Source: Exiguobacterium mexicanum
GTDB lineage: Bacteria; Bacillota; Bacilli; Exiguobacteriales; Exiguobacteriaceae
Reading direction: 5' to 3'
Length of the DNA: 64,000 nucleotides
Assembly (NCBI RefSeq): GCF_005960665.1
Contig: NZ_CP040676.1
Span: forward strand, 630,501 to 694,500
The notes under the pieces: generated by a model
The model's database searches: none
What the model saw: only the letters and a program-made list of their open reading frames with translations
What the model was told of the DNA's origin: nothing
Program-made: the position numbers and the translations under genes
Shown here: positions 58,767-61,134 of the stretch, piece after piece
Layout of the letters: each line of letters begins with the position of its first letter
How positions within the stretch are numbered: the first letter of the stretch is position 1

Positions 58767-59858
58767 ATGATTATCAATAACAACTTAAACGCAATGAACG
58801 CACATCGTAATATGTCATTCAACACTTCGAACACTGGTAAAGCGATGGAGAAATTGTCTTCAGGTCTTCGCATCAACCGTGCAGGTGACGATGCTGCTGG
58901 TCTTGCAATCTCTGAAAAAATGCGTGGTCAAATTCGCGGTTTAGACCAAGCGACACGTAACTCACAAGATGGTATTTCTATGATTCAAACAGCTGAAGGT
59001 GCATTGAATGAGACGCACTCAATCCTTCAACGTATGCGTGAACTTGGAGTTCAAGGTGCCAACGATACTAACGTTGCTCAAGATCGTGATGCTATCCAAG
59101 AAGAACTCACTGCTTTAAAGAGTGAAATCGATCGCATCGGCAATACAACAGAATTTAACAAACAAACATTATTAAACGGCGGTCTTGGTGGAACTGTTGA
59201 TCAAGATGCTGCTACTACTACAGTACTTGCTGTTACAGGTGTAGCTAGTGCTTCAACTAATGGAGCGGCAGCAGGTACTTACGCAATTACTGCCGCTGCT
59301 GGTGAGTTAACTATGACTTTCGGTGGTAAAACGCAAACAATCGCCAATGCTGACGGAGCTCAAGAGTTGAACTTCTCTGAATTCGGCATTTCGATTAAAA
59401 CAAATGCAGGTTACACAGCTGATGATGCTGTAGGTAACGTTGTAGTTGACCCTGGATCAGTTACTTTCCAAATCGGAGCTAACGAAGATCAAAACTTAAG
59501 CCTTAACATTCGTAACATGAAAACGGATGGTGTCTTAAACCTTGCTACTGCTGGTCGTGTAGATGTTTCTACGCACGATGCAGCTAAAGCTTCTGTAACA
59601 AATATCGAGAGCGCAATCACTGAAGTTTCGAAAGAACGTTCAAAATTAGGTGCATACCAAAACCGTCTCGAGCACACAATCAACAACCTTAAAACATCTT
59701 CTGAAAACCTAACAGCGGCTGAATCACGCGTTCGTGACGTTGACATGGCGAAAGAAATGATGAACTTTACGAAAAACAACATCCTCAACCAAGCTTCGCA
59801 AGCAATGTTAGCTCAATCGAAATCTCAACCAGAAGCGGTTCTTCAACTTCTTCGGTAA
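58767..59858 (+). CDS. hag: Flagellin; exon 1 plus intron-encoded tail (unspliced form)
   Basis: A 363-residue flagellin as read from unspliced mRNA. The N-terminal INNNLNAMNAHRNMSFN, SSGLRINRAGDDAAGLA and GISMIQTAEGALNE blocks and the C-terminal NRLEHTINNLKTSSENL, ESRVRDVDMAKEMM and QASQAMLAQ form the D0/D1 rods; the variable centre is short. The ribosome site is ATGGAGGG 9-10 bases before the ATG. Predicted exon 1 ends at 59813 (349 codons, after MLA); the last 14 codons and stop then belong to the intron and encode QSKSQPEAVLQLLR. Splicing would replace them by exon 2 at 60209. Exported by the flagellar system; chaperone FliS is at 63.6 kb. Confidence 0.95.
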   Translation: MIINNNLNAMNAHRNMSFNTSNTGKAMEKLSSGLRINRAGDDAAGLAISEKMRGQIRGLDQATRNSQDGISMIQTAEGALNETHSILQRMRELGVQGANDTNVAQDRDAIQEELTALKSEIDRIGNTTEFNKQTLLNGGLGGTVDQDAATTTVLAVTGVASASTNGAAAGTYAITAAAGELTMTFGGKTQTIANADGAQELNFSEFGISIKTNAGYTADDAVGNVVVDPGSVTFQIGANEDQNLSLNIRNMKTDGVLNLATAGRVDVSTHDAAKASVTNIESAITEVSKERSKLGAYQNRLEHTINNLKTSSENLTAAESRVRDVDMAKEMMNFTKNNILNQASQAMLAQSKSQPEAVLQLLR

Positions 59859-60208
59859 GATTTACGGGCGTCTTATCTGGTAACGGATAAGAGTACCACT
59901 GGGTGAATTGCTGGGACTCCTGAGAGCCCTCCTTACGACAACGTGACTGGAAACGGTGAGCGTGAGCGTTATGAAAAAAGGAAGGGATTGGACAATCAGC
60001 AGCCAAGCATCTGTCAGGAAACTGTGATGAAGGTTCAACGACTAGGATGAACGACCTACCGACTTCAGGTCCATGGTTATGAGATCCGTACCTCAACAAC
60101 GGTGAGGGAAGTGCCCAGCCCCTATTTTACAATAACATTTTATTTTATATTAAAATTGTAAAAGGGTGAAGATATAGTCTGGTCTATATTGAAAAATATG
60201 GTGAACTG
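59814..60208 (+). ncRNA. Group I intron (predicted 395 bases) in the flagellin gene
   Basis: A self-splicing ribozyme candidate. Core elements appear in order: P (AATTGCTGGGA, 59906-59916), Q (AATCAGCAGCCAAGC, 59994-60008), R (GTTCAACGACTAG, 60033-60045) and S (AAGATATAGTC, 60169-60179). P7 pairs GACTA (60040) with TAGTC (60175) perfectly. P2 is TCTTATC / GATAAGA (59871-59892), P6 CATC / GATG with a GAAA-capped CAG/CTG extension, a long P7-P8 arm CCCTATTTTACAAT / ATTGTAAAAGGG, and P9 CTATATT-GAAA-AATATGG. The 5' site follows a T (GCT^CAA) and the intron ends in G (AACTG^CAAG), as the family requires. No protein gene lies inside. IA2-like by motif style. A second junction pair, 3-4 bases further on at both ends, is also possible. 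Confidence 0.88.
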
Positions 60209-60253
60209 CAAGCAAATCAACAGCCGCAAGCTGTACTTCAATTGCTCCGTTAA
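60209..60253 (+). CDS. hag: Flagellin exon 2 (alternative C-terminus after splicing)
   Basis: Fourteen codons and TAA encoding QANQQPQAVLQLLR, the usual Bacillales flagellin tail. Joined to codon 349 of exon 1 it restores ...AMLAQANQQPQAVLQLLR with 363 residues in total. It has no start codon or ribosome site and makes sense only as a spliced exon. A strong terminator follows 32 bases later. Confidence 0.85.
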   Translation, partial: QANQQPQAVLQLLR

Positions 60254-60284
60254 TATAGCAATTGACTATCTAAACGTTATATTA

Positions 60285-60319
60285 AAAACCGTGGAGCTTA
60301 TGCTTCACGGTTTTTCACG
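60285..60319. terminator. Bidirectional terminator of hag and the homing endonuclease gene
   Basis: 14-pair stem AAAAACCGTGGAGC / GCTTCACGGTTTTT (one G-T), 4-base loop, T runs both ways. It contains the stop codon of the minus-strand endonuclease gene. Confidence 0.92.
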
Positions 60320-61134
60320 TCTTGCCATTTATAAACGACCGACCAGTATGTTCGATTCAATCGTCGGGCAATCTCTTTGTCCGTGACTCCTTGTTGTTTC
60401 CAATTGATGAGTAAAGCGATGTCTTCGTCACTATACGGTCTAGCGGGGATGGAGACGCGAATCTTGTAGTCCGGATGTGTTTGTTTATACGTCTCTACTT
60501 CGGTCTGTAGACGTGTTCCCCATGACAGTTTATATATGAAGTCAGGTAGTTCGGCAATGTAAGGCTCGAATAAATTTAAAATGTCGAACGTGTCAGTCAC
60601 TTTTGTCGTTTTCAAATAGTAGCCGGTGCCGCTCGGCGTGCCTGATGTTCGAACGTTAATGTCGTAGCGCGCTTTCATCCAGGTGGCTAACTGTTCCAAC
60701 TGGTGTCTTGAAAATGCTTGTAAGTAGAAAGCGATATGAGGAGTGAATTGAATTTCTTTCTTATCATGATTGAAACGCTTACTGAGGAGAAGGGAGCCAT
60801 CGTCTAAGTAGAGTGTGAGCAGAAATGAAGGATGATGGATATCTTTAAGCAACTTGAATGGAACGTGTTTTTTGTTGTTCGGATAAAAAAGTGGGAAGAG
60901 TTTCGTCATCAGAGGAATTGAGCGCGACACGAGGTTGTTTCCCCGTAAGTACAATAAATTAGATAGCTTTTGTTGTTTCCATTGGCGGTAACTTAACTGT
61001 CCCATCCCGAAATGCTCCCGGTAACTGTTGTTCACCCGTCGATCATACGGATAGCACTTCGTGATTTCTCCATCCCCCAAAATACTAGCAACTAGAATCG
61101 CTACTTGTTCGTCGGATAATCCTTCCCAGTCCAT
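60298..61134 (-). CDS. LAGLIDADG homing endonuclease, free-standing, with C-terminal HTH
   Basis: A 278-residue DNA endonuclease with two LAGLIDADG motifs: VASILGDGE at about residues 15-23 and LTLYLDDGS at about 106-114, so a monomer should cut an asymmetric site. The C-terminal 45 residues (DEDIALLINWKQQGVTDKEIARRLNRTYW) are a helix-turn-helix, probably for added specificity. AAAGGAG lies 9 bases before the ATG. It is outside the group I intron, 44 bases after exon 2, and transcribed towards hag. It most likely cuts intronless flagellin genes and so spreads intron and endonuclease together; this is inferred from position. Confidence 0.88.
   Translation of the reverse strand: MDWEGLSDEQVAILVASILGDGEITKCYPYDRRVNNSYREHFGMGQLSYRQWKQQKLSNLLYLRGNNLVSRSIPLMTKLFPLFYPNNKKHVPFKLLKDIHHPSFLLTLYLDDGSLLLSKRFNHDKKEIQFTPHIAFYLQAFSRHQLEQLATWMKARYDINVRTSGTPSGTGYYLKTTKVTDTFDILNLFEPYIAELPDFIYKLSWGTRLQTEVETYKQTHPDYKIRVSIPARPYSDEDIALLINWKQQGVTDKEIARRLNRTYWSVVYKWQDVKNREA

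Follow-up and report, generated by a model that had tools for sequence, protein, structure and literature searches.

The flagellin gene hag of Exiguobacterium mexicanum, in the 64,000-nucleotide stretch of DNA analysed here (the window), is interrupted near its 3' end by a group I intron, and the first codons of that intron encode a second C-terminal end for the protein. The initial annotation had claimed that flagellin is encoded with or without splicing. The claim is supported by the presence of the intron-encoded end in 76 of 79 introns at this site and by purifying selection acting in frame on both ends, and is further backed by P1 pairing at the 5' splice site, with one compensatory change. 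We consider it probable (about 0.6), judging from sequence comparison, that the intron-encoded end serves as a fail-safe, through which unspliced mRNA would give a usable flagellin. The layout is far more general than this one strain and is found in several Bacilli families.

The hag gene, its intron and its two ends

The elements of the locus are as follows.

58767..59813, + strand: hag (flagellin) exon 1, 349 codons (ORF, Pfam, site aligned in relatives)
59814..60208, + strand: group I intron, 395 nt, with C at the 5' end and G at the 3' end (Rfam, splice-site rules, relatives)
59814..59858, + strand: intron-encoded alternative C-terminus (tail 1), QSKSQPEAVLQLLR followed by UAA (sequence, homologues, selection test)
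60209..60253, + strand: hag exon 2 (tail 2), QANQQPQAVLQLLR followed by UAA (ends of intronless relatives, selection test)
60284..60315, + strand: hairpin ending in U's, likely a transcription terminator, 3' of exon 2 (fold)
59811..59814, + strand: 5' strand of P1, GCU^C, with the splice site between 59813 and 59814 (folds onto 59866-59869)
59866..59869, + strand: internal guide sequence GGGC, which pairs with GCUC, with U.G at the splice site (fold, relatives)
59820..59863, + strand: P1 extension (P1a), in which 59820-59825 pairs with 59858-59863 (MFE fold, swap test)

Read straight through, hag is listed as an ORF at 58767-59858 (+ strand) of 363 amino acids that ends in QSKSQPEAVLQLLR, and its product matches Flagellin_N and Flagellin_C in Pfam. 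Exon 1 ends in ...QAMLA, with GCU directly 5' of the 5' splice site, and the first 45 nt of the intron encode the 14 residues of tail 1 and its stop codon. Joining exon 1 (349 codons) to exon 2 (14 codons) gives 363 residues, the same as the unspliced reading. A recheck of the ORFs and the sequence showed that the initial annotation had placed hag, the intron and exon 2 correctly and that the protein is indeed equally long either way; the two tails, which were said to mimic each other with different codons, agree at 27 of 42 bases in the window. When hag was aligned with intronless relatives, a check named at the outset, the exon-2 tail matched their ends with the same or nearly the same protein. 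The hairpin 3' of exon 2 has a folding energy of -20.6 kcal/mol (z -7.28; 0 of 200 shuffles were as good) and is absent from the list produced by a terminator consensus scan; the same scan listed no terminator-like site on the + strand between tail 1 and exon 2. Ca. 8 kb downstream, to the right of the window, lies a second and more distant flagellin gene (49-53% identity; G000:C4:698454-699269).

A covariance search with Rfam model RF00028 (Intron_gpI) gave a match at 59840-60201 that covers the full model (1-253) with 88.2 bits (gathering threshold 50; E 1.4e-22); nothing else in the 2501 bases scanned reached E<=1. The group I intron proposed earlier is thereby borne out, and a full RF00028 core lies between the two tails, unlike what is expected if exon 2 were the remnant of a second gene with no intron core in between. 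Group I introns need a U before the 5' splice site and a G as the last intron base. On rechecking the sequence, U59813 was found to precede the intron and G60208 to end it, and both features, which the initial annotation had pointed out, are present in 40/40 members of the first curated set of homologues. By its core, its P1 U·G pair and its terminal G, the element is confirmed as a group I intron, for which self-splicing is predicted. Splice sites nearer the guide sequence, such as CUU^CUU with UUG^CUC, were weighed since Rfam had put P1 near 59840-59870. They were rejected on the grounds that P1 of the GCUC/GGGC type appears in 8/8 folds with a compensatory change in loci L065 and L094, that a G precedes exon 2 in 40/40 homologues, and that the sequence just upstream of this G is variable.

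Pairing of the exon end GCU and intron base C with GGGC just 5' of P2 is predicted in all eight introns that were folded, and in two genomes of one genus (L065, L094) a UCU exon end is accompanied by a GGGA guide, a compensatory change. Codons 2-5 of tail 1 pair with bases between the stop codon and the guide sequence, and in the MFE fold of the window most of codons 5-14 lie inside the P1a loop. The partners in P1a change together between lineages (AAUC/GAUU, ACAACA/UGUUGU, CACAGCA/UGUUGUG). In 61 distinct tail/linker combinations, the mean energy of P1a was -5.66 kcal/mol with a tail's own linker versus -3.48 (sd 0.23) with swapped linkers, the best of 200 shuffles reaching -4.16, a control that is less strict than it appears in view of the relatedness of the sequences; pairing was weak (above -3 kcal/mol) in 5 of the 61. 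Folding and the swap test show that tail 1 is predicted to sit in an enlarged P1 hairpin, with P1a pairing holding in most cases. Introns L092 and L099 have, instead of tail 1, a compact and far shorter P1 hairpin. The layout drawn in the initial annotation therefore stands, with a different emphasis: the tail is part of an enlarged P1 hairpin, and the arrangement reaches beyond this strain.

Distribution of the layout and selection on both tails

Six of 19 genomes in the genus and 14 of 19 in its sister genus show the two-tail layout (20/38 Exiguobacteriales genomes), and because it recurs in this way it is not a chance arrangement. Within the genus, tail 1 begins with QSKSQPE, QSNSQPQ, QSQSQPQ or QANSAPQ, each then followed by AVLQLLR, while tail 2 is an identical protein in all six intron-bearing genomes and agrees with the C-termini of the intronless relatives, Q[AS]NQQPQAVLQLLR. 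The tails of the sister genus are QSNQTPQGVLQLLR and QANQQPQGVLQLLR.

A search of 398 genomes of the class with RF00028, in which four to five candidates per genome were scored under stricter filters, reached E<=1e-8 in at least 84 genomes, and loci were inspected in 82 of these, at only some places in each. In this Rfam-based sample flagellin introns occupy two sites, site 1 after ESR[IV]RDVD and site 2, which is the site of the window; site 1 only was found in 6 genomes, site 2 only in 28, and both in 12. At site 2, a full 14-residue tail 1 is present in 38 of 40 genomes, in a sample that was not conditioned on the tail and half of which (20/40) is Exiguobacteriales. The two exceptions, G070 and G059, read QFEQVA and QLLVA before the stop. 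Site 1 introns (L060, L063, L064, L066, L068, L070, L072-L075, L077, L081, L092, L094-L096, L107 and L121) differ, in that their frame runs for 5-6 codons (YALAA, YVLTAA, YAEAA and others) and then stops in all 18 genomes. The first count of these had required a stop within 20 codons; a recount made without that condition, in which overlapping loci count a few genes twice, gave the early stop and no 14-residue tail at 25/25 sites. Skipping of the middle exon is conceivable in the 12 genomes that have both introns.

Pattern searches extended the sample. In family f3, with spacers of 22-52 nt (longer ones, such as that of G200, are missed), 49 sites were found in 47 of 261 genomes, with tail 1 intact in 48, the exception being the frameshifted L177. 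The same spacer range found the pattern in 0 of 41 genomes of family f37, where the spacer is longer (53 nt in G138); with spacers of 26-56 nt, 17 sites appeared in 17 of the 41 genomes, with tail 1 intact in 17/17 and tail 2 seen in 16/17, the remaining site being L200, at which tail 2 was looked for and not found. Across the phylum, the 22-52 nt pattern, which misses longer spacers, turned up in 2 of 398 genomes. Several genomes carry more than one hag: G001 has two neighbouring copies (L008/L024), of which the first has both intron and tail 1 and the second is intronless with the canonical tail, and G552 (L177/L181) and G580 (L191/L192) have two intron-bearing copies each, with a frameshifted tail 1 in one copy of G552.

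Among 79 distinct site 2 introns, the 14-residue tail 1 is intact in 76, short in two and frameshifted in one (L177), and tail 2 is present in 79/79. To enter this set, an intron had to have a GCU or TCU exon end, a GGGC or GGGA guide and the motif ATAGTC, and G had to precede exon 2; introns with GTAGTC, of which five were seen, are missed, junction-identical sites were merged, and the duplicate L024 was dropped. Synonymous and nonsynonymous changes were then counted by parsimony (transition weight 2, simple expectation) along a tree of these 76 introns from which the tail sequences had been excluded. Tail 1 accumulated 207.7 synonymous changes, against 93.1 (sd 7.8) expected without protein constraint, and 91.3 nonsynonymous ones; codons 6-14 contributed 155.5 and 29.5. 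When the same bases were read in frames +1 and +2, the counts became 40.8/254.2 and 13.3/284.7. Tail 2 gave 173/18. Since the in-frame counts are unlike those of the shifted frames, we conclude from these substitution patterns that each tail is conserved as protein, with the stricter constraint on tail 2; splicing should therefore matter too. The VLQLL of tail 1 (positions 9-13) is unchanged in 76/76 introns, and residues 2-6 and 8 vary. Stop codons are found within tail 1 in frame +1 in 28 of the 76 and in frame +2 in 10, and in none in frame 0. Within one gene, the two tails are on average 67% identical in DNA and 82% in protein.

Three comparisons of Exiguobacterium tail 1 by DNA identity come out about equal: 0.704 with its own tail 2, 0.676 with the tail 1 of other Bacilli and 0.690 with their tail 2. 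DNA identity therefore does not decide between a single origin of tail 1 and repeated capture. In the intron tree L092 and L099 are nested among introns with tail 1 (support 0.985 and 0.946), which suggests that tail 1 was lost twice. Because these two persist without it and L177 carries a frameshift, tail 1 is not indispensable. Two further ideas were tried and dropped. Residue 8 of tail 1 appeared to track tail 2 in 64 of 76 introns of the first set, and failed to do so in six of seven new cases with Ala in tail 1; spare flagellin genes might have excused the loss of the tail, and no second flagellin gene was found in G070 or G059 at E<=1e-20.

Possible roles of the intron-encoded tail

For introns in highly expressed bacterial protein genes, translation can block folding, and truncated proteins would be released. 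In the mechanism that we favour, a group I intron that always sits with 14 flagellin codons still to follow would bear, within P1, a functional copy of the 3' coding end that is otherwise lost. From the unspliced message, flagellin with tail 1 would be made, the ribosome stopping at 59856-59858, before P2 and the ribozyme core; from the spliced message, flagellin with the canonical tail 2 of exon 2 would be made. Because no truncated subunit would be released, the intron would do almost no harm to a structural gene with high expression, even if splicing were slow or ribosomes blocked it. Selection acting on tail 1 implies translation of the unspliced message into a useful protein, and selection on tail 2 implies that splicing also happens; we infer that both messages are present and translated, that both proteins assemble, and that avoidance of truncation is what maintains tail 1. 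A caveat is that in the 12 genomes with both introns tail 1 could help only once the first intron had been spliced. The initial annotation had further proposed that the early stop shields the ribozyme core. A stop ahead of the core is real; by itself, it does not explain a 14-residue tail, because in-frame stops are common in group I introns, as described in a passage of PMC3984707, and introns at site 1 stop after 5-6 codons. There is perhaps an even chance that these elements represent a widespread class of mobile intron that insures its host gene, with a protein-coding exon substitute in the hairpin of the 5' splice site, optional splicing, and two subunits of equal length in a ratio set by a race between ribosome and ribozyme.

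Were tail 1 kept only as RNA, as an extension of P1, its coding sense would be incidental. P1a pairing does constrain codons 2-5, but the excess of synonymous changes in codons 6-14 (155.5 versus 29.5), which the other frames lack, contradicts this reading, and the two tail-less introns form a P1 hairpin from far shorter sequence; we regard it as barely credible. A regulated switch between isoforms is a livelier alternative, though still unlikely. Splicing would respond to temperature, translation or growth state, and the tails would differ on purpose, with consequences for secretion, chaperone binding or filament properties. The initial annotation had likewise suggested that two filament variants could arise, which may differ where FliS binds. 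In keeping with a switch, tail 1 retains Ser at position 2 (54 of 76 introns) and one of Met, Thr and Ser at position 5 (57 of 76), where tail 2 has Ala (75/76) and Gln (63/76), and splicing of the thermophile flagellin intron is temperature dependent and maybe regulatory according to a citing passage in PMC4853749. However, the tails are 82% identical in protein, both Ser and Ala are used at position 2 by the 14 aligned intronless flagellins, and positions 2-5 of tail 1 are also constrained by P1a pairing; because of this last point we rank a switch below avoidance of truncation.

Two readings would deny one of the tails a present function. Tail 1 might be the real gene end and exon 2 a displaced relic, by analogy with fungal mitochondrial genes hit by endonuclease elements. 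PMC3630166 describes mobile ORFs (Allomyces atp6; Glomus atp6, atp9, cox2 and nad3) in which an element likewise imports a replacement gene end, with diverged DNA and similar protein, beside a gene for an endonuclease, mostly of the LAGLIDADG kind. The Glomus layout is similar: its two atp6 ends share 63.5% of their DNA sequence and 91% of their protein sequence, against average values of 67% and 82% here. In those genes, however, the element displaces the native end, which in atp6 and cox2 gives rise to no mRNA, whereas here a ribozyme could restore the native end and both ends are under selection. A native end that is displaced and unneeded, the mark of the fungal mobile ORFs, is not what we find: the exon-2 tail is intact in 79/79 introns and under strong selection (173/18, stronger than for tail 1). 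It follows a G-ended intron in phase in all 79 (the G was required by that search, and was found in 40/40 when it was not), and in L092 and L099 it is the only complete end. A relic exon 2 thus seems very improbable. Alternatively, tail 1 could be a by-product of homing, left by one or more captures of a host tail and now without function. The intron does have a homing endonuclease gene as its neighbour, its distribution is patchy, and the failure of tail 1 DNA to group by kind (0.704, 0.676, 0.690) would fit repeated ancient captures. But an identity to the own tail 2 that is barely above that to foreign ones means that any captures would not be recent, and through ca. 299 inferred changes among 76 introns the frame, the length and VLQLL were kept, contrary to what lack of function predicts. 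We consider a by-product of homing distinctly improbable.

Known systems and the neighbouring endonuclease

Group I introns in flagellin genes of thermophilic Bacillus and Geobacillus were reported by Hayakawa and Ishizuka (2009, 2012; cited in PMC3984707 and PMC4853749), and the Geobacillus intron was classed as IA2 (PMC4853749). They resemble the present intron in kind and in host gene and possibly belong to the same family, on the guess that f37, in which 17 of 41 genomes have tail 1, holds those genera. The citing passages in these two papers speak of splicing as a suggested control of motility and make no mention of an alternative tail. In the open-licence PMC literature searched for flagellin introns and for productive group I retention, as far as its accessible text goes, no intron-encoded alternative flagellin tail is described; the original thermophile reports may describe one. 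A group II intron in the surface-layer protein gene of Clostridium tetani, according to PMC3919590, also yields spliced and unspliced messages that encode different isoforms. It differs in its ribozyme and in its four alternative splicing reactions, and, as described there, is without the single equal-length exon substitute inside the splice-site hairpin that is present here. Exon skipping in orf142 of phage Twort likewise gives more than one mature message from a gene with a group I intron, and the passages of PMC10136302 describe no functional product of a retained intron.

The intron family would show a way round the conflict with translation, namely to encode the missing protein end in the intron. 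If our interpretation holds, retaining an intron can be productive in bacteria and subject to selection, the locus offers a clean system for measuring competition between translation and self-splicing, and annotations in which flagellin ends with tail 1 overlook a second isoform in many Bacilli.

Beside exon 2, head-on to hag and overlapping the hairpin at 60284..60315, lies one further gene.

60298..61134, - strand: free-standing LAGLIDADG homing endonuclease gene (LAGLIDADG_2; PF03161, E 4.3e-13)

Matches to this endonuclease are found beside 6/6 intron-bearing hag genes of the genus, one of them a 29-residue remnant, and in the sister genus beside 6 of 14 introns, plus one remnant; the flanks searched in both genera were ca. 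1.5 kb. Relatives with 37-42% identity also stand beside five intronless hag genes of the genus (L009, L011, L012, L013, L020), and others near some introns of other Bacilli. Of the named loci, four have a relative of the adjoining endonuclease, and all four are from Exiguobacterium. An ORF-less intron adjacent to a free-standing endonuclease gene fits a putative collaborative homing pair. As in the collaborative homing systems treated in a passage of PMC3984707, an intron without an internal endonuclease gene lies beside a free-standing LAGLIDADG gene; here, by contrast, relatives of the endonuclease also occur beside intronless hag genes, and cutting of the intronless hag site is putative.

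Elsewhere in the genome there is one weak, sub-threshold group I intron match (24.6 bits; G000:C4:1869935-1870196, L002). The intron core at 59904-60044 is matched by 116 phage records, 86 of them from Staphylococcus and Bacillus phages, with 70-81% identity among the 20 matches listed.
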